37,523 nucleotides of DNA from a virus: positions 1 through 37,523 of IMG/VR virus record IMGVR_UViG_3300022751_000014; one strand, given 5' to 3'. Each line of letters opens with the position of its first letter. Within the stretch, counting starts at the first letter, position 1. Positions 3,861 through 32,169 of this stretch are shown here, in pieces. The position numbers and the translations under genes are program-made. The notes under the pieces are model-generated. The model was not told the DNA's origin and searched no databases. It saw only the letters and a list, made by a program, of their open reading frames with translations.

Positions 3861-5687
3861 ATGAAACCACAAATACCTGACGATCCTATTTCTCGAATAC
3901 AACAAAAAAGACAGGCACAGGCAGGTTTTGACGTTGATCAGTCTCGGACTGATTCTATTATCGACGCTGTGAAATCATCTGGCGGAGAGACCAAAGACGG
4001 TATTACTTCAGCTATGCATGACATACTTATGGCGACTCTCATTGGGAAAGACCCGAAGATAGCCGAAGTTGCGAAGAACCTTGCTGGGCTACTTGAGTCT
4101 ATTGATAAAGCATCAAAGAACGTCAAAAGCAGTAGCCTAGAGGTGTTACCAAGTGTTTACAAGTCGCTTGTCGACGCTATTGCTGAACTACCAGGGAAGC
4201 TTGCGGAAAGCGACAACACAGAAGTTCTTATACCTTATCTTGAGGGTATCAATAAGACGATTCAGGGCAAAAATACAAACCCTGTCGTCACGGTTAACAA
4301 CAAAGATGTGAAGCTCGACGCTAAAGAGGTTGTTGATGCGATTAAAGATCTTAAAAAAGTTCTGCAGAATGTTACTAAGCCTGAGAAAGAAGGTAAAGAA
4401 GCTGATCTGACGCCACTTGTTGATGCAGTGAACAAGGTGACGTTTGCTGTAAACCATCAGCAGTTCCCAGTATCAAATTACGTTCTTCCTTTCAGGGATG
4501 ATTCAGGCGCTGCGACACAAATAACAGCGGTTACTAGTTCAACCGATCCGACTAAGACAGGGCTCATCGCCCTCAATCCTGACGGTTCCAACATATCTGG
4601 CGGCGGTGGAGGTGGAGGAACGCAGTACGCGGAAGGAGTCACAACATCCCCGGCTACTGGTACTGTCTCCCTCGGGCGCTACAGTACGTCTGCGCCAGTG
4701 CTTACTAATGGACAGTTGAATGCTCCCCAGCTTGATGTAAATGGTAATACGAAGATTGTACCTGCGTCAGCAACACTTCCTGTGCAGCTTAACGCATCAC
4801 AGACTACAACAACCGGTTCAATCACCACGTCAACAACAACTATTACTGTGACCGATCTCGCAGGCGTTGGAGCAGTCACAGTAACCATTTTCGGAACGTA
4901 CGCAGGCGTTAACGTCACTTTTGAACAAAGTCTCGATGGCAGCACTTGGGCTAATGCAACGGCGGTTCCTACCACACTGGTGAACCCTACAGCTATCTCA
5001 GGTGCAACAGGTGTACTTACAACTAATAGCACTAATATATGGAATGTATCACCTCTTCTGGGGGTCGCTCAGTTCCGCGTTCGAGCAACTGCATTTGGTT
5101 CTGGTTCAGCTAGTGTTCGAATTGAACCGTCTGCTCAGTTTGTTCAACCTAACGTACTTGTGACTAATCCAACGGCTGCAAACCTAAACGCTACTGTTAC
5201 AGGTACTGTTACTGCTAACATCGGTACAGGTGGGACAGGTGCGACTTCTCTTGGTAAGGCAGAAGATGCTGTCCACGCTTCAGGAGATACTGGAGTTGCT
5301 GTGTGGGGTGTTGTCAACACAGGCGCAGCGACGAGCTTTGCTGCCAATGGAGATTATAGCCCACACGCTGTAGATGTACAGGGACGAAGGTATGTTACTA
5401 TGAAGGCTCCGGCCGCCACCTTGTCCAACGTCTCAGGTTCTGCATCGTCAGTCACTGTTTTAGCAGCTAATACAGGCCGTCTAGGCGCGACAGTCACAAA
5501 TGACTCATCAGCCCTGCTCTACCTTAAATTGGGTGCTACAGCCTCTACAACTAGTTACACAGTTGTGTTGGCGGGTAACGCATCTGCCCCCTTTGCATAT
5601 TATGAGTTACCGTTTGGGTACACTGGCATCATCGACGGCATTTGGAGCAGCGCAACTGGAACCGCCAGGGTGACGGAGTTAAGTTAG
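3861..5687 (+). CDS. Virion structural protein, helical N terminus and beta-rich C terminus
   Basis: A 608-residue protein. The ATG at 3861 is used rather than TTG 3855 because AGG lies just upstream within the tagged leader. Residues 1 to about 200 are charged and helical with many Lys/Glu, like an attachment stalk. A run of glycines near residue 250 marks a flexible hinge. The rest is Thr/Ser/Ala/Val-rich and beta-like, with repeated short segments such as TVTGTVTAN. The C-terminal domain ends with FAYYELPFGYTG, a pattern seen in phage baseplate and fibre proteins. It is the first gene after the glycosylation cassette and its many Ser/Thr residues make it a candidate acceptor. Exact virion location is inferred. 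Confidence 0.7.
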   Translation: MKPQIPDDPISRIQQKRQAQAGFDVDQSRTDSIIDAVKSSGGETKDGITSAMHDILMATLIGKDPKIAEVAKNLAGLLESIDKASKNVKSSSLEVLPSVYKSLVDAIAELPGKLAESDNTEVLIPYLEGINKTIQGKNTNPVVTVNNKDVKLDAKEVVDAIKDLKKVLQNVTKPEKEGKEADLTPLVDAVNKVTFAVNHQQFPVSNYVLPFRDDSGAATQITAVTSSTDPTKTGLIALNPDGSNISGGGGGGGTQYAEGVTTSPATGTVSLGRYSTSAPVLTNGQLNAPQLDVNGNTKIVPASATLPVQLNASQTTTTGSITTSTTTITVTDLAGVGAVTVTIFGTYAGVNVTFEQSLDGSTWANATAVPTTLVNPTAISGATGVLTTNSTNIWNVSPLLGVAQFRVRATAFGSGSASVRIEPSAQFVQPNVLVTNPTAANLNATVTGTVTANIGTGGTGATSLGKAEDAVHASGDTGVAVWGVVNTGAATSFAANGDYSPHAVDVQGRRYVTMKAPAATLSNVSGSASSVTVLAANTGRLGATVTNDSSALLYLKLGATASTTSYTVVLAGNASAPFAYYELPFGYTGIIDGIWSSATGTARVTELS

Positions 5688-5688
5688 C

Positions 5689-7626
5689 ATGCCTTTATTT
5701 AACCAAGGCGTCCAATCAGTATCTAAAACTGGTAGCGCCAAATTGAATGGTGATGTTACACTCACGGGTGGAACAAATGTTACTCTTACACAATCAGGAC
5801 AAGATATCTCTATTGCAGCAACAGGTGGATCAGGTTCAGGGACAGTGAATACAGGAACAGCAAATAAGTTGGCCTTCTATGCTACAAACGGAACGACAGT
5901 CAGTCCTACGACAGACATTAGTATATCTTCTTCTCAGCTGACACTTGGGGTTGCTTCGGGTGTGAGCCAAGGCGCACTTATCATGGCTGGTGGTAGTAGT
6001 GGCACAACAACACTTATACCCACGTCTGTAGCGACGGGCACCCTAACACTTCCATCTGCGACAGACACCCTAGTTGGACGCGCTACAACAGATACTCTTA
6101 CGAATAAGACACTTACATCTCCTATACTGGTAACACCTGCACTTGGAACACCAGCTTCTGGCGTGCTCACGAATGCCACTGGGCTATCGGTACCTGGAGG
6201 GCTATCTGCAACCGGTACACCAAGCAGTACTACATTCCTAAGAGGTGATGGCACGTGGGCTACCCCCTCTGGGTCTGGAGATATGGTACTTGCAGGTATA
6301 CAAACAGTCACAGGTGCTAAAACCTATAACGTTGGTACACTTATAACTGCTGGTTCTACCTCGGGTACTACTACTCTTAACGCATCTGCCATCGCTGGAA
6401 CGACAACTCTCGTACTTCCTGCCGTTAATGATACGCTGGTAGGGAAAGCTACAACCGATGCACTTACTAATAAAGACCTTACCTCTGGTACGAACACCTT
6501 CCCGACCTTTAACCAAAGTACGACAGGTTCGGCAGCAACCCTCACAACCGCAAGAACTATAGGTACTCTTACGGGCGATGTCACTACAGCTGGTTCAACA
6601 TTTAACGGCTCGGCTAATAACACAAATGCGACTGTCCTTGCAACGGTCAACGCAAACGTTGGTTCATTTGGCTCTGCGACACAGGTAATGACTCAAACAG
6701 TCAACGCTAAAGGTCTTACAACTGCTGCGGCAAACGTTACTATTACTCCAGCAGTAGGATCTATAACTGGACTGGGAACCGGAGTGGCGGCGTTCCTTGC
6801 AACTCCTTCTAGTGCAAACCTTGCAACAGCAGTAACTGACGAAACTGGTTCAGGTGCGCTTGTATTAGCTACATCGCCTACTCTTGTAACACCAAGATTT
6901 GGGAGTGCTGGTTCTATAACTGACGCCAACGGAAATGAGCTTATCTTATTCCCAACAACAGTAGCCTCAGCAGTTAACGAAATCACAATAGCCAATGCAG
7001 CTACTCTCAATGCACCTGAAATTCGTCTCACTGGAGGAGATACAAATGTCAGTTTGAACATTGTACCGAAAGGGGCTGGGTCAGTACTCGTCAATAGTAT
7101 CTTGGTTGCAACTGCGAGTAATACACTCTCACTATCTAATAAGGATTTAACTGCAACCACCAACACATTTCCTAATGGGTTTGCTGTTCAAGTTGCAGCA
7201 ACTAACTTCACAGCTTCGACAACTGGTACCACAATAATGCCGTTCGATGATACGATTCCACAGATCACAGAGGGGTTCGAAGTGATGACCCAGGCAATTA
7301 CACCTAAATCAACAAGCAACATTCTTACGATTGAAGCAACCGTCTTCTGTGGTGGTTCAGTTCCAGCATCTATGACAGCTGCGCTATTCCAGGATTCTAC
7401 AGCCAATGCACTCGCAGTTTCATCAACGTATATGTTGACAGCTACGGGACCTATTAATATTAAGTTACAGTACTCGATGACGGCTGGTACTACCTCGTCA
7501 ACGACCTTTAGGATACGCTTGGGAATGGATGTAGTTGGCACCACAACATTCAATGGTGTTGGTGGTACACGTAGATTTGGTGGAATCTCCGCGTCGAATA
7601 TAAAGATTACTGAACACAAGGCTTGA
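5689..7626 (+). CDS. Tail fibre protein with internal repeats
   Basis: A 645-residue Ser/Thr/Gly-rich protein that begins one base after the preceding stop (TAG C ATG), so it is probably translated by reinitiation. Imperfect repeats with the core TLVGKATTDALTNKDLTS occur near residues 125, 245 and 480. Other phage fibre shafts carry TNKTLTSP-type repeats like these. A FLRGDGTWATP segment near residue 185 is a common fibre trimerisation-type motif. The C-terminal 150 residues form a compact, less repetitive domain that probably binds the host receptor. No chaperone or peptidase domain is recognised. Confidence 0.82.
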   Translation: MPLFNQGVQSVSKTGSAKLNGDVTLTGGTNVTLTQSGQDISIAATGGSGSGTVNTGTANKLAFYATNGTTVSPTTDISISSSQLTLGVASGVSQGALIMAGGSSGTTTLIPTSVATGTLTLPSATDTLVGRATTDTLTNKTLTSPILVTPALGTPASGVLTNATGLSVPGGLSATGTPSSTTFLRGDGTWATPSGSGDMVLAGIQTVTGAKTYNVGTLITAGSTSGTTTLNASAIAGTTTLVLPAVNDTLVGKATTDALTNKDLTSGTNTFPTFNQSTTGSAATLTTARTIGTLTGDVTTAGSTFNGSANNTNATVLATVNANVGSFGSATQVMTQTVNAKGLTTAAANVTITPAVGSITGLGTGVAAFLATPSSANLATAVTDETGSGALVLATSPTLVTPRFGSAGSITDANGNELILFPTTVASAVNEITIANAATLNAPEIRLTGGDTNVSLNIVPKGAGSVLVNSILVATASNTLSLSNKDLTATTNTFPNGFAVQVAATNFTASTTGTTIMPFDDTIPQITEGFEVMTQAITPKSTSNILTIEATVFCGGSVPASMTAALFQDSTANALAVSSTYMLTATGPINIKLQYSMTAGTTSSTTFRIRLGMDVVGTTTFNGVGGTRRFGGISASNIKITEHKA

Positions 7627-7666
7627 TATATTTTCTAGTGAATAGTGTTATCCAATGTGTACCATA

Positions 7667-19223: not shown

Positions 19224-19336
19224 ATAGGGCTATGTCGTAAAATATATGTTGTGCGACCACTGTAACAGGGGTGATTGTTTACTTGGAATACATTTGTTAG
19301 TACATACACCACATATAGCGTGTTAAAAGTTGCCAT
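19196..19336 (-). CDS. Possible small minus-strand protein
   Basis: A 46-residue minus-strand frame with a strong ribosome-binding site (AGGGGG, five bases before ATG 19336). The sequence is mixed in composition (MATFNTLYVVYVLTNVF at the start, basic end) with no recognisable domain. It follows another minus-strand frame at 19356-19514 by 19 bases and could share its transcript. The overlap with the plus-strand membrane gene and the short length keep this tentative. Confidence 0.35.
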   Translation of the reverse strand: MATFNTLYVVYVLTNVFQVNNHPCYSGRTTYILRHSPIQLRDRATK

Positions 19337-19355
19337 ACAGACCCCCTTCTCGCAG

Positions 19356-19514
19356 CTAGAGACCAGGAACAAACACGAACCTTCTACTAGTGTTATTTAA
19401 GACCTTTCCTCTTCCCAAGTACTCAGTAATAACAGCCGAACATTTGATGACATCGCATAGACCAGGTTGACGTTTAGGGGTCAATAAATCAGAGCCTGGG
19501 TTTAACGTCACCAT
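19356..19514 (-). CDS. Possible small minus-strand protein with paired cysteines
   Basis: A 52-residue minus-strand frame from ATG 19514. Its composition is protein-like (GLCDVIKCSAVITEYLGRG, NNTSRRFVFVPGL) and it has a CxxxxC pair, but there is no clear Shine-Dalgarno sequence. A 14-codon GTG frame with a protein-like start (VKVIIEFDGDV) overlaps the beginning in another frame. This may mean a leader peptide or a frameshifted gene. The region 19224-19593 holds nothing convincing on the plus strand. Confidence 0.4.
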   Translation of the reverse strand: MVTLNPGSDLLTPKRQPGLCDVIKCSAVITEYLGRGKVLNNTSRRFVFVPGL

Positions 19515-19593
19515 CAAATTCAATTATTACTTTCACTTCGTTTTTCGTCCTATAAGGGAGGGGCTACGGCAATAACAGGGGTTGTAAAAGTAT

Positions 19594-19621
19594 TTGCAAT
19601 TTGGTGTCTATCTGATAGAAT
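19594..19621 (+). promoter_or_regulatory. Promoter of a short plus-strand RNA
   Basis: TTGCAA, 16-nt spacer, TAGAAT (19616-19621) preceded by TGA (extended -10). A terminator begins only 25 nt after the -10. TTGCAA is self-complementary and might serve a divergent minus-strand promoter too, but no good minus -10 is seen at the right distance. Confidence 0.6.
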
Positions 19622-19626
19622 AAAAG

Positions 19627-19672
19627 AAGACAAAAACATAGCCTTCCCCGCACGCAAATGCGGGGTTCTTTA
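19627..19672 (+). ncRNA. Candidate short terminated RNA (about 45 nt)
   Basis: A promoter ending at 19621 is followed directly by the terminator stem CCCCGCA / TGCGGGG (19646-19652 with 19659-19665, loop CGCAAA) and TTCTTTAT. No open frame fits between. The 5' arm AGACAAAAACA..GCCTT is repeated with two changes at 19707-19724. This may be a small regulatory or decoy RNA, or simply an attenuated leader. Confidence 0.5.
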
Positions 19673-19733
19673 TATCCCAAATTACCCCCTAAAACTGCTT
19701 GTGTTAGACAAAAACACTGCCTTAGGTTATGTT

Positions 19734-19771
19734 TATATTACCACGTTAAAGGCAGAAATGAAGAAGGCACT
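19734..19771 (+). repeat. 38-bp gene-start repeat, copy 2
   Basis: Perfect copy of 18506-18543, including the AAAGG site and ATG. Its own promoter candidate is TAGACA-17-TATGTT at 19705-19733. Confidence 0.95.
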
Positions 19772-19886
19772 TTTTCTAATTCTACAATCTCTTGTGGTGA
19801 GAGTTGTATATTCTACAATATTTGCAGCCCATATTAAAAGGTTGTATTATTGTATTTTACGAATATATAAAATACCCGCCAATTAA
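19758..19886 (+). CDS. Short protein from the duplicated gene start, possibly a remnant
   Basis: The second copy of the gene start runs into a different sequence and encodes 42 residues: MKKALFLILQSLVVRVVYSTIFAA then a basic, Tyr-rich end. The first half is hydrophobic like a signal anchor. After the shared 38 bp there is no similarity to the 18530 gene. It could be a decayed duplicate, a small membrane peptide, or a leader whose translation start is conserved for regulation. Confidence 0.4.
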   Translation: MKKALFLILQSLVVRVVYSTIFAAHIKRLYYCILRIYKIPAN

Positions 19887-19958
19887 GACGGGTTCATTTA
19901 CGGTCAACCTAGAATTTTCATAGGTCAACGACAGGTGCAAAAACTGGCTAACAGTTTC
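19866..19958 (-). ncRNA. Candidate minus-strand small RNA 1 (about 90 nt)
   Basis: A minus-strand extended -10, TGG TATAAT (complement of 19965-19973), is followed by AAACTG-TTAGC-CAGTTT, a six-bp hairpin. The 3' end is a terminator-like hairpin ACCCGTC / GGCGGGT with tail ATTTTATATATT (complement of 19874-19893). One pair of that stem is a G-U wobble only in minus-strand RNA and a mismatch on the plus strand. GTTGACC occurs twice 22 bases apart inside. No plausible open frame was found. Confidence 0.5.
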
Positions 19959-19977
19959 GTCCGTATTATACCACTAA

Positions 19978-20120
19978 GTGAAAAGACCCCCTAGACAGAA
20001 TAGTGCTCCAATAGGGGTCTTACTAAGATTGCAGCAAACAATGAGAGAAGTTCGCTGCTATGATATACCAAAGGTACGTGCCAGACCGTGATCCAGTTCA
20101 ATACCGGTAATCTGGTAATG
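19978..20120 (-). ncRNA. Candidate minus-strand small RNA 2 (about 140 nt)
   Basis: It has the best promoter of the cluster: TTGCCA (complement of 20149-20154), 17-nt spacer, TATATT (complement of 20126-20131) with TGA before it. Predicted hairpins are a CCAGA / TCTGG stem reinforced by CCG / CGG, then GCAGCGAAC / GTTTGCTGC (9 bp with one G-U that pairs only on this strand). The 3' end is a terminator AAGACCCC / GGGGTCTT followed by TTTC, with a long 23-nt loop. No open frame with a start signal was found. It resembles an independently transcribed structured RNA. Confidence 0.6.
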
Positions 20121-20157
20121 CTTAGAATATATCACGTTATATAGGTTATGGCAACAT

Positions 20158-20215
20158 AAAACAAAGTCCGTACTGGACGGACTAAGGGCTGCGTCCACAA
20201 CATGGTAGTACAGTG
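20158..20215 (-). ncRNA. Candidate minus-strand small RNA 3 (about 50 nt)
   Basis: A compact terminator AGTCCGT-CCAGT-ACGGACT followed by TTGTTTTA (complement of 20165-20183) ends a short minus-strand stretch. The best start is an extended -10 TGC TATGCT or TGC TATAGG near 20215-20230 without a good -35, so it may instead be the 3' end of read-through from RNA 4. Confidence 0.4.
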
Positions 20216-20227
20216 CCTATAGCATAG

Positions 20228-20318
20228 CACAAAAGAAAACGCCCCCGTGGAAGAATTGATACAACAAGTGTAAGATTCAGGGGCGTTTGGCTATATCTTA
20301 CCACCTATAAGGTAATAA
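20228..20318 (-). ncRNA. Candidate minus-strand small RNA 4 (about 90 nt)
   Basis: Promoter candidate on the minus strand: TAGCAA (complement of 20348-20353), 17 nt, TATAAG (complement of 20325-20330). The first hairpin is CTTATTACC / GGTGGTAAG with a 5-nt loop; its two wobble pairs form only in minus-strand RNA. The 3' hairpin is AAACGCCCC / GGGGCGTTT with an unusually long 34-nt loop, followed by TCTTTT. No open frame of note was found. Confidence 0.5.
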
Positions 20319-20368
20319 GGCAAGCTTATACAACACACAAGGAATACTTGCTAGTTCTCTAAAACGTA

Positions 20369-20397
20369 TTGCAAAACCACTACCACTGTGCTATTAT
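20369..20397 (+). promoter_or_regulatory. Early promoter E1
   Basis: TTGCAA, 17-nt spacer, TATTAT with TGC before it. The spacer contains ACCACTACCAC and the leader GGAAGGATTGAATAC ends at the ATG. Both the spacer and the leader are shared with promoters at 24003 and 25859, so they are probably a common regulatory signature. Confidence 0.85.
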
Positions 20398-20430
20398 AGA
20401 GGTAAATCAATTTTAGGAAGGATTGAATAC

Positions 20431-24037: not shown

Positions 24038-24253
24038 ATCAATCAAACGGAAGGATTGATACAGAACCAGGGCGAGATGCAGACTCTCGGGACATACGGT
24101 AAAAGTCACCCCACAACGGTTCACGAATTAACAAACAAATCAACGGCTCCTACCTGGAGAACCAATACAGTAAGATGTGAAACCCATCTCAAGCCCTCCT
24201 AAGCAAAATGTCATCAAGGTCTCTGGGTAAAAGCCGTTGAAGAAAAGAGTAAT
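24038..24253 (+). ncRNA. Long structured leader, or small RNA
   Basis: No convincing gene lies between E3 and ATG 24254. Helices seen are CGAGA / TCTCG around 24072-24088, a GGTTC / GAACC pair, AGATG / CATCT near 24175-24189, and a perfect long-range stem CAACGGCT / AGCCGTTG (24141-24148 with 24232-24239). That stem closes a 99-nt domain ending 14 bases before the gene start. It may control the frameshifted lysozyme gene or belong to the large RNA downstream. A 42-codon frame from ATG 24077 exists but looks weak. Confidence 0.5.
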
Positions 24254-24801
24254 ATGTCAAAAGAACAAGCACCTGTAAAAAAGAACAAGAAAAAAGTTAA
24301 CATGACAAAGCTACAACTCATTGGGTTTTGGTCAGTCGTCATCCTACTCGCAACCTTTTGGTTCGGTACATTTGTAGGAACACAAGCAACTCTCAGCTCA
24401 CAAGCTAACGAAGCACAGATCAAAGCGCAAGCGGTTGAGTCCTACAAAGCGTCTTTAAACAAGCAGTAGACACGCCACAAGCTACTGAAACAACAAACGT
24501 GGCAACTATTGCACCTGAACAAGAAACAGTCGTTACAGAGCCTTTGAAGCATACCAGCGAGGATGAAGCAAAGGCATACATATACTTTAAGGAATCAACT
24601 AACCGACTCGATGCAGTCAACGCTTCATCAGGAGCATGTGGCATTGGTCAGAGTCTTCCTTGTAGTAAGTTAGCGAACGACTGTCCATCTTGGCAAACAG
24701 ATTATGCTTGCCAAGATAACTGGTTTACTGGTTACATGGAACGTAGGTATTCTACGTGGAGTAATGCACAAGCCTTCCATATAGAAAATGGCTGGTGGTA
24801 A
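24254..24801 (+). CDS. Membrane-anchored lysozyme-like protein made by -1 frameshifting
   Basis: Frame 0 (24254-24469) encodes 71 residues: a Lys-rich cytoplasmic start, a membrane anchor at about 20-42 (LQLIGFWSVVILLATFWFGTFVG) and a spacer. Its last codons contain T TTA AAC (24454-24460), the classical slippery heptamer. A shift of -1 there passes the TAG and continues to 24801, giving about 182 residues. The added part is a Thr/Glu linker and a lysozyme-like (transglycosylase-type) domain: AYIYFKESTNRLDAVNASS, GACGIGQSLPCSK, a CQDNWFTGYMERRYSTW core and an end in NGWW. Saccharibacteria and relatives carry this wall-enzyme type. The catalytic Glu would be in KESTNR. The downstream frame alone has no start signal. 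Confidence 0.8.
24454..24503 (+). promoter_or_regulatory. Programmed -1 frameshift signal: slippery site and pseudoknot
   Basis: TTTAAAC at 24454-24460 is in the correct phase (T TTA AAC). Three bases later stem 1 is CAGTAG / CTACTG (24464-24469 with 24482-24487), which contains the frame-0 stop. Stem 2 is GCCAC / GTGGC (24474-24478 with 24499-24503), joining the loop to downstream sequence. The crossing loop is AAACAACAAAC, A-rich as in known H-type frameshift pseudoknots. The 3-nt spacer is shorter than usual. Confidence 0.8.
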
Positions 24802-24811
24802 TTTAACAATT
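24798..24811 (+). repeat. 14-bp direct repeat flanking RNA domain 1, left
   Basis: GTAATTTAACAATT, repeated exactly at 25025-25038. The two copies bracket domain 1 of the large RNA candidate almost precisely. Confidence 0.9.
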
Positions 24812-25460
24812 CGACTGTTCACATGGACACATAAGCAAGCGTCGCAAGACACTAGTCACTTCGGTGAGACAGAGCCCCTTGTGTGTTCTTCATGGCTACA
24901 CAAGAGAGGGTCGTAAGAAATATACGAACTGAGCAAAGCACACCCGTGTAGTCAGCTAGTAGTTAACCCCAAAAGGTAAAATCTCTAAGGTCTGTTGCTA
25001 CTAGCAGCCATGTGAGCAGTCGATGTAATTTAACAATTAGGTTGAGTATCAGTTGTGCTGGCAAAGACTCGCCGTCATGCACCCAAGGCATTGGGAGATG
25101 GGAATAAGCTCTTTGCCTGGCACCATGATACTCAACAATAACTAATCTCTATATAATGCTGGGAGTAAGCATGACGATAGGTACTTAGCGGTATAGGCGC
25201 ATGGAGTTAGCTTAATTAGCAGTCTAACTATCAAGGCAAAAGCGGTTCTGTGTTTCTATCACAATAGGGGTTCATGACCTGACGATACTAGATAACAGTT
25301 CATAATGAGGGTTCGATTCCACTCACGTTCTTGCTCTTGGCATCGTATAGAGATTAGAGTACAAAGACTTATAGATAGTTGTGTCCCCATAAGTTCGGGC
25401 GAAAGCCTAACGCTCTGCCATGATGCATCAACGCAGGAAATGCTTATGGGGCATCCACCT
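24812..25460 (+). ncRNA. Candidate giant ornate RNA with four closed domains
   Basis: The stretch 24802-25501 has no credible gene but folds strongly. Domain 1 is closed by a 15-bp helix, 24812-24826 with 25008-25022, and has inner stems CTTGTGT / ACACAAG, GCTAGTAG / CTACTAGC and a UUCG hairpin. Domain 2 is a perfect 10-bp stem 25041-25050 / 25127-25136 with GGCAAAGA / TCTTTGCC inside. Domain 3 is closed by 25144-25160 / 25339-25355 (16 of 17 paired) and holds a T-loop hairpin. Domain 4 is CCCCATAAG / CTTATGGGG with a GAAA tetraloop arm and a 10-base palindrome in another loop. Size, phage context and complexity recall GOLLD and ROOL RNAs, but identity is not shown. Confidence 0.78.
25025..25038 (+). 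repeat. 14-bp direct repeat flanking RNA domain 1, right
   Basis: Exact copy of 24798-24811, between domains 1 and 2. Confidence 0.9.
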
Positions 25461-25501
25461 GCTTATAAGGTTAATAACAATAATTAGTAAGAGGAGATAA
25501 G

Positions 25502-25711
25502 ATGAGCAAAAAGCAAAGTTTTGAAGAGTTACTGTCACAGCCATATGAACGACTTACAACAGAACAAAAGTTCGAGATAATTGGTATAGCTATAGAGGTT
25601 ATGGAAAATAAGAGAATCCGACTTAAAGAACTTAAAAATGCCAGAAAGACAGTTAAAGTAAAAGGTCGCCGTTACCGATTGAATGATATAAGAAAGCTTA
25701 AAGAGTACTAA
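25502..25711 (+). CDS. Small basic hypothetical protein
   Basis: A 69-residue protein with ribosome-binding site AGAGGAG. It is helical and strongly basic in its second half (ENKRIRLKELKNARKTVKVKGRRYRLNDIRKLKEY), so RNA or DNA binding is plausible. It directly follows the large RNA candidate and may be read from the same transcript, which makes RNA binding attractive, but this is inference. Confidence 0.62.
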   Translation: MSKKQSFEELLSQPYERLTTEQKFEIIGIAIEVMENKRIRLKELKNARKTVKVKGRRYRLNDIRKLKEY

Positions 25712-30993: not shown

Positions 30994-32169
30994 ATGGCAT
31001 TTACTGAAACAACAGCATTGCATAAGATCCTAAAGATGAAAGCACGCAATCGTGTCGTCCAAGGCGGCGCACGGGCTGGTAAATCGATCGCTATACTTCT
31101 TATCTTGATAGACATCGCTCAATCACAGAAGGGTAAGACAATATCTGTTGTATCTGAGACTGTCCCTCACTTGAAGCGTGGTGTAATCCGTGACTTCTTG
31201 AGTATCCTAAAAGAACAAAACTACTACAAAGACGATCGTTGGAATAGAACAGATTTTATTTACACATTCGAGACAGGTTCGTTTATAGAGTTCTTCTCGG
31301 CAGACTCACCGGACAAAGTGCGTGGACCAGCTCGTAACATCCTATTCATCAACGAGTGCAACAATGTATCATTTGATGTGTACACACAGCTTGCTATTCG
31401 TACGACTGACTTTATCTACCTGGACTACAACCCGGTAAGTGAGTTTTGGGTACACGAGGAAGTTATCACTAAGGATAACCACGACTTTGACATTCTTACT
31501 TACAAGGATAACGAAGCGCTATCACCAAATATCGTACAGGAGATTGAGTCACGAAGAGGCAATAAGGCGTTCTGGCGTGTCTTTGGTGAAGGCTTGATTG
31601 GTGAAGCTGAAGGTAAAGTATTTACAGGTTGGAAGCTAGACCTTGAGGAGATCCCACACGAAGCAAGGCTTGAGCGTTACGGACTAGACTTTGGGTACTC
31701 CAATGACCCATCGTGTCTTGTTGCAATTTACTATTATAACGGCGGGTATATCCTCGATGAAGTTTTATATCAGAAGGGATTGAGTAATAAGCAGATAGCT
31801 GACGTCATCCAGAACCAACCTGCAGCACTCGTGATGGCTGACAGCGCAGAGCCAAAGAGTATTGATGAGCTCAAGCTTTATGGTGTCAACGTCACAGCTA
31901 CGATTAAAGGACAGGGTTCTATTAACCAGGGTATCCAATATGTTCAGGACCAAAAGATAACACTCACTAAGCGGTCTATCAATGGGATTAGGGAATATCG
32001 TAACTACATGTGGGCTACTGATAAAGACGGAAAGATTCTCAACAAACCGATCGACATATGGAATCACTTCATGGACGCGACACGGTACGGCTTCGAAGGT
32101 CTAAGGGGCACGAGCCAAGTTATACACGCTTACAAACCAGCAGATATGTTACGAGCAAAACACAGGTAG
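30994..32169 (+). CDS. terL: Terminase large subunit (ATPase and nuclease)
   Basis: A 391-residue packaging motor. Walker A is GGARAGKS at residues 24-31 and Walker B is ILFINE ending at the catalytic Glu121. The C-terminal RNase H-like nuclease has the acidic positions LDFGYSNDPS, MADSAEPKSID and NHFMDATRYG. The length is slightly below the common 400-500. The pattern is that of the PBSX/Terminase_3 group often paired with headful-type packaging. The 65-bp gap after terS holds a 24-codon GTG frame that I do not consider real. Confidence 0.95.
   Translation: MAFTETTALHKILKMKARNRVVQGGARAGKSIAILLILIDIAQSQKGKTISVVSETVPHLKRGVIRDFLSILKEQNYYKDDRWNRTDFIYTFETGSFIEFFSADSPDKVRGPARNILFINECNNVSFDVYTQLAIRTTDFIYLDYNPVSEFWVHEEVITKDNHDFDILTYKDNEALSPNIVQEIESRRGNKAFWRVFGEGLIGEAEGKVFTGWKLDLEEIPHEARLERYGLDFGYSNDPSCLVAIYYYNGGYILDEVLYQKGLSNKQIADVIQNQPAALVMADSAEPKSIDELKLYGVNVTATIKGQGSINQGIQYVQDQKITLTKRSINGIREYRNYMWATDKDGKILNKPIDIWNHFMDATRYGFEGLRGTSQVIHAYKPADMLRAKHR

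Follow-up and report, generated by a model that had tools for sequence, protein, structure and literature searches.

The window, by which we mean the whole stretch of 37,523 nucleotides analysed here (positions 1 to 37,523 of IMG/VR virus record IMGVR_UViG_3300022751_000014), holds an array of four back-to-back closed RNA domains at 24811-25469, with a transglycosylase gene on one side and a small ORF on the other. On the plus strand, where all features of the locus lie, a small membrane protein gene (24254..24469), putatively holin-like by its position and with homologues that adjoin modules elsewhere, is followed by the transglycosylase-like gene (phrog_12661, 24499..24801) directly upstream of the array, and the gap of ~700 bases from this gene to the ORF at 25502 accommodates all four domains. 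Domain 1 ('X' type, 24811..25023) has a closing helix and three more arms at a conserved junction, and is flanked by a 13-base direct repeat, the linker TAATTTAACAATT, whose first copy (24799..24811) shares bases with the stop codon of the preceding gene and whose second copy (25026..25038) is also found before domain 2 in the related phage L087, which is without domain 1. Domain 2 (the 'Y' module, 25041..25136) combines a closing helix, a GUU/CA internal loop and an acceptor-like stem in a pre-tRNA-like arrangement, with the RCCA-type motif GCACCA (25120..25125) at the 3' foot of that stem. Domain 3 ('Z', 25142..25357) consists of a closing helix and an interior with a T-loop-like stem, and the linker AGTACAAAGA (25358..25367), near-invariant across seven core members, leads to domain 4 ('W', 25368..25469) with its outer helix, inner helix (25385/25451) and GAAA tetraloop. 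The 3' linker GTTAATAACAAT (25470..25481) precedes the ribosome-binding region of the next ORF. The leader of the gene for the small membrane protein has two more closed stems (24063-24123 and about 24139-24242), the former of which (GAACC...GGTTC, with a common interior) is also present in L101 at about 2528-2587. Elsewhere in the window, a 1.2-kb stretch at 19224-20430 has no ORF above 61 aa, is weakly structured (z -2.6) and contains a terminator-like hairpin.

The analysis of the fold bears out an earlier note on this DNA, which had claimed four closing helices, all of them found in place with small corrections. The domain 1 helix is 16 bp long (24811/25023, one G-U) rather than 15 bp, the helix of domain 2 is perfect and lies at 25041/25136 as described but measures 11 rather than 10 bp, that of domain 3 begins at 25142/25357, two bases farther out than the proposed 25144/25355, and the 9-10 bp at 25385/25451 in domain 4 agree with the 9 bp given. 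Overlooked at that time was the outer helix of domain 4, in which CTTATAGATAG (25368-25378) pairs with CTGCTTATAAG (25459-25469), nearly invariant in relatives. Both tetraloops, UUCG and GAAA, are in the sequence, and the reported T-loop corresponds to a T-loop-like stem, GAGGGTTCGATTCCACTC, that carries a bulged A. The plus strand folds with an MFE of -226.3 versus a mean of -185.1 (sd 6.8) for 100 dinucleotide shuffles, the best of which reached -208.2 (z -6.05; an earlier z of -10.35 came from 20 shuffles alone), and the minus strand gives a z of -4.33 against dinucleotide shuffles. Helices of at least 11 bp number 25 in the whole window versus 18-20 in shuffles, which is near chance density; within the array three of them are consecutive and non-overlapping. 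The view that no gene fits also holds: the sole plus-strand ORF of at least 60 aa in the region is 25305-25487 (60 aa), no relative has a matching frame, and no conserved protein frame covers the region in the relatives.

Seven IMG/VR phages, namely the window, L002, L087, L101, L102, L106 and L124, share a core in which the linker AGTACAAAGA, which reads AGCAAAAATA in L124, leads into the helix CTTATAGATRG/CTGYTTATAAG, with one U for C in L102. L002 was found via the terminase (30994-32169; protein 91% identical), and its stretch after the transglycosylase has only short blocks in common with the window; the other five were found by DNA patterns and a neighbouring gene. The core model R1 scores 100-132 bits across the seven members (window 127.9 bits), and a search of 1.2 Mb of terminase relatives with R1 returned no member beyond them. 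Low-energy intergenic stretches of the terminase relatives L043, L073, L041, L044 and L052 were without a common motif, and L097 and L098 carry different domains of the same kind. Since the outer helix of domain 4 hardly varies, covariation is uninformative there, and the informative changes come from the other domains. In domain 2, six versions of the closing helix all pair completely, with double changes at 7 of 10 pairs, and the domain 3 helix shows double changes at 7 of its 9 outer pairs with 95.6% of cells paired among relatives, both counts having been made on helix strands alone with the interiors swapped for a spacer. A particularly clear case is domain 2 of L098: over 105 nt its interior matches the L087 one at 90% identity, yet the closing helix around it has had both strands replaced (GTTGAGCGTTGT/ACAACGCTCAAC versus ATTAAAGACAG/CTGTCTTTAAT). 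For domain 1, comparison of the window with L106 and L102 shows all 22 pairs of the three arms retained and four double changes among them, and the junction letters are constant. Compensatory changes are thus seen in independent helices of related phages, and this covariation supports a large structured phage RNA, as the earlier note had proposed.

This RNA was then compared with known families and sequences. All Rfam families were tested, including GOLLD, ROOL, HEARO, OLE and the group I/II introns, without a match: the window gave nothing at curated cut-offs, the array region under permissive filters (E<=10) gave only a chance snoRNA (E 1.8), and the relatives (E<=1) gave no family match besides tRNAs or chance. 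Membership in GOLLD or ROOL, one of three readings offered earlier, is therefore not supported; a relation to them too distant for covariance models may exist, and the third reading, a new class, fits best. Neither ARAGORN nor the Rfam tRNA model detected a tRNA cloverleaf in the window, GenBank phages and PLSDB plasmids contained no similar DNA by blastn, a module query against phages gave chance matches alone, and exact search of GTDB genomes for a conserved 20-mer gave zero matches. Most matches of an 18-mer scan lay inside coding DNA and were rejected as chance. An integron attC site (RYYYAAC in the 5' arm, GTTRRRY in the 3' arm) was considered and rejected because the arms are in reversed order in the window; other members, e.g., ATTCGACTGTA, are without them.

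Domain 2 is a widespread module that recurs well outside this group of phages, with Y modules in about 30 loci. The 16-mer GTAGTAGTGCTGGTAG matched 94 IMG/VR stretches, of which 27, L097 and L100 included, contained the complete module. Of the module, this search constrained just the 5' part of the inner stem and not the outer helix, but retention of a locus required 7 or more outer pairs together with a loosely defined 3' pattern. In the alignment of 28 sequences 99.6% of cells are paired, a percentage partly due to this locus filter, and 60 cells are double-changed relative to the commonest pair, a variety of pair types that the filter does not produce. This observation is further strengthened by controls in which none of 500 shuffles reached any of five measures and slid versions attained at most 49.6% pairing. 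With the 3' loop left free, exactly CA follows the GCAC-like hexamer in 27 of 30 modules. The window has every element that defines the Y family, namely a covarying closing helix, a GUA or GUU / CA loop and a GUGC..GCAC stem, and scores 53.8 bits (E 1.5e-12) with model R2, for which it is one of 28 training rows; outside the training set, R2 recovers L124 (46.1 bits), L087 (42.4 bits), L098 and extra copies in L103 and L100. Tandem Y copies are joined by ACATTAACAATT in L100 and L283, and ACATTAACAATT lies 3' of the module in L260. Several ORFs accompany these modules. Those of 64-77 aa overlap Y modules in L302 (minus strand, near 7371-7665), L296 (7655-7940), L259 (3170-3389) and L265 (2431-2650), the ORF being wholly within the module in L296 and L302. 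HNH-type ORFs, comparable to homing endonucleases in intron loops, lie inside the Y module of L002 (3293-3721) and just before that of L097 (3676-4110); in L002, AATTAAGCGTA stands before the ORF and CATACGCTTAAT overlaps its end.

The geometry of the Y module is that of a tRNA precursor. Its inner stem ends in GCACCA within a leader-trailer-like helix, as in a pre-tRNA-Leu that is itself an R2 match: in the class of the genome of L125, the sole match to R2 is the chromosomal tRNA-Leu gene L321 (35.5 bits; 1515-1622), whose leader pairs with its trailer in a long perfect helix. L321 and the Y modules are in the same register, with a leader ...CGUA, a short loop, GU|GCUGG..., ...AGC|ACCA and a trailer UACG..., the leader and trailer being paired. 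Y modules accordingly present the ends of a precursor, that is, an acceptor-like stem then RCCA inside a paired leader and trailer, and their continuous inner stem extends 11-12 bp from the supposed cleavage point. This is about the length of an acceptor plus T stem, of which minimal RNase P substrates are built. Further tRNA likeness is found in and beside the arrays of relatives, where the Rfam tRNA model, whose cut-off is 29 bits, gives 31.0 bits inside domain 4 of L101 and a complete tRNA-His lies directly 3' of the array in L002. T-arm-like hairpins (5 bp) are ~30x denser in array stretches than in background phage DNA, a figure based on n=4, one of which is the tRNA-His; the same analysis detected no tRNA in the window, and most Y interiors are without a T-arm or D-arm. 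Degenerate tRNA-like elements, in which parts of an acceptor, T-arm or D-arm are clearly recognisable, were observed in or adjoining the arrays of L103 (3315-3393), L100 (3200-3295) and L232 (minus strand, near 4430-4500).

The genomes of cellular organisms provide some indication of the host. Of 393 genomes belonging to the same class as G021 (the source genome of L154, titled Candidatus Saccharibacteria), R2 matched 4, and three of these matches, L317, L318 and L319, are convincing. The fourth, L320, was discarded as it looks by eye like a Der-like GTPase gene. Judging gene names by eye, L317 adjoins chromosomal-looking genes, L318 adjoins tRNA-Gly, tRNA-Phe and a stomatin-like gene, and L319 adjoins tRNA-Gly, surroundings that are as expected for integrated elements. 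R2 matched none of 480 genomes from the Arthrobacter class (247) and the Woesebacteria class (233), neither of which offers a positive control, and a search of genomes for terminase relatives did not single out a clear host, the matches being scattered across mixed and metagenome-binned organisms. The window phage itself is not placed directly; the occurrence of the wider module family in Saccharibacteria genomes would point to a host of that kind.

Comparison among relatives makes it clear that domains have been exchanged both between phages, whose terminases are 41-64% identical, and between positions. Domain 4 and its flanks are 98% identical over 131 nt between the window and L102, with terminases at 64%, and the domain 1 type of the window occupies the domain 3 position in L102 and in L106, the terminase of which is 41% identical over the aligned part. 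Similarly, the L002 RNA carries at its 5' end a 72-nt piece that corresponds to the interior of L124 domain 3 (92%), and the number and identity of domains differ widely at one gene junction among relatives. Because each domain has its own covarying closing helix and short conserved linkers, domains can be swapped by recombination without breakage of the fold. A long near-perfect inverted repeat at the contig end of L020 (1-410; z -23.7) is probably an assembly artefact.

Taken together, the best reading is that these modular phage RNA arrays, tRNA-like in part, form a new family, whose function we infer. We tentatively favour, at less than even confidence, a trans-acting array cut from the late transcript by tRNA-processing enzymes to give tRNA mimics or decoys. 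An array of independently folding domains in the phage late region would be transcribed together with its neighbours, host RNase P and the 3' tRNA-processing enzymes would cut at or bind its tRNA-like ends, and the product would be a stable RNA with a role in trans; that role would most probably be one of tRNA mimicry or decoy, with interiors that change under selection. The decoy role is favoured since constant ends with exchanged interiors are the expected trace of an arms race, and it is this pattern of variable interiors that would point to decoy action. The trans-acting reading is favoured by the fold z, the covariation in domains 1 to 3, the exchange and spread of modules, the register common to Y modules and tRNA-Leu, the conserved GCACCA, the tRNA match in L101 and the tRNA-His of L002; against it count the lack of a T-arm or D-arm in most Y interiors, the failure to detect a tRNA in the window and the occurrence of single modules in gaps by lysis-type genes. 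A more specific version, which we regard as doubtful, would see in the modules pre-tRNA-shaped cassettes with constant ends for host tRNA-processing enzymes and hypervariable interiors that phages of ultra-small bacteria pass among themselves; these cassettes would act as a changeable set of tRNA decoys against tRNA-cutting defences.

Almost as likely as the trans-acting decoy array, if still on the unlikely side, is a cis role near lysis-type genes, whereby intercistronic mRNA structures would protect, separate or time late genes such as those for the small membrane protein and the transglycosylase. This ranking follows from 29 module loci, 11 of which have a transglycosylase homologue no more than 3.5 kb away and often only a few hundred bases from the module, even though none is nearby in the remaining 18. 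Closed structures in the leader of the window's membrane-protein gene, the lack of any promoter excess near the array and single modules in ordinary intergenic gaps adjoining lysis-type genes would all suit such elements; the wide variation of domain count and identity at the same junction would not, and a simple spacer or stabiliser would have no need of a constant GCACCA and internal loop. Rather unlikely is a GOLLD- or ROOL-like scaffold, a large ornate multimerising RNA with cargo (tRNAs, ORFs) in variable loops. Size, phage origin and a tRNA or ORF in loops or adjoining the array speak for it, as does the constant domain 4 helix with a variable 5' part, comparable to the constant 3' and variable 5' regions of GOLLD (PMC12286853), but there is no Rfam match, and mosaic members of one to many domains hardly suit a fixed quaternary assembly. 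We consider it improbable that the array is primarily a landing ground for selfish elements, in which mobile cassettes with HNH-type ORFs would persist since a closed fold and linkers render their insertion harmless: the HNH ORFs in L002 and L097, the ORFs inside the L296 and L302 modules and the direct repeats around domain 1 fit this proposal, yet most copies carry no ORF, and base-pair selection across many lineages implies that the RNA fold itself has a use. Chance folding of a featureless non-coding gap can be virtually dismissed, contradicted as it is by the covariation (domains 2 and 3, and the 28-sequence alignment) and the fold z, with no support left by the comparison with relatives.

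Large phage RNAs are few and their function is mostly unknown. The present array adds to them a natural experiment, in which closing helices stay constant, interiors are exchangeable and a pre-tRNA-like module recurs in ~30 phage loci and in Saccharibacteria genomes, and RNase P processing offers a concrete entry point to function in phages of a host group with little-known phage biology. Among known systems, the cage-forming phage RNAs GOLLD and ROOL are comparable in size and lie near tRNAs (PMC12286853). GOLLD resembles the array in being phage-encoded, longer than 600 nt and constant in its 3' but variable in its 5' region, with tRNAs in or near it and sometimes in its linker (PMC12286853), whereas the array has no covariance-model match, exchanges its closed domains and has one that recurs alone. 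ROOL is likewise phage-encoded, of similar length and near tRNAs, with 5' and 3' regions described as intertwined (PMC12286853), in contrast to the separate domains of the array, which has no covariance-model match to ROOL either; the array may work in a GOLLD/ROOL-like way, with variable loops of a large structured RNA carrying the cargo. The tRNA precursors, as represented by L321 tRNA-Leu, share with the Y module the leader-trailer helix and an identical register of acceptor stem and ACCA, and differ in that most Y modules have no cloverleaf and that the Y interior is variable, about 80-260 nt. Lastly, the tRNA cluster of phage T4 includes stable non-tRNA RNAs of unknown function that are made beside tRNAs and processed by tRNA enzymes, and their likeness to the array, by description only, provides a lead.
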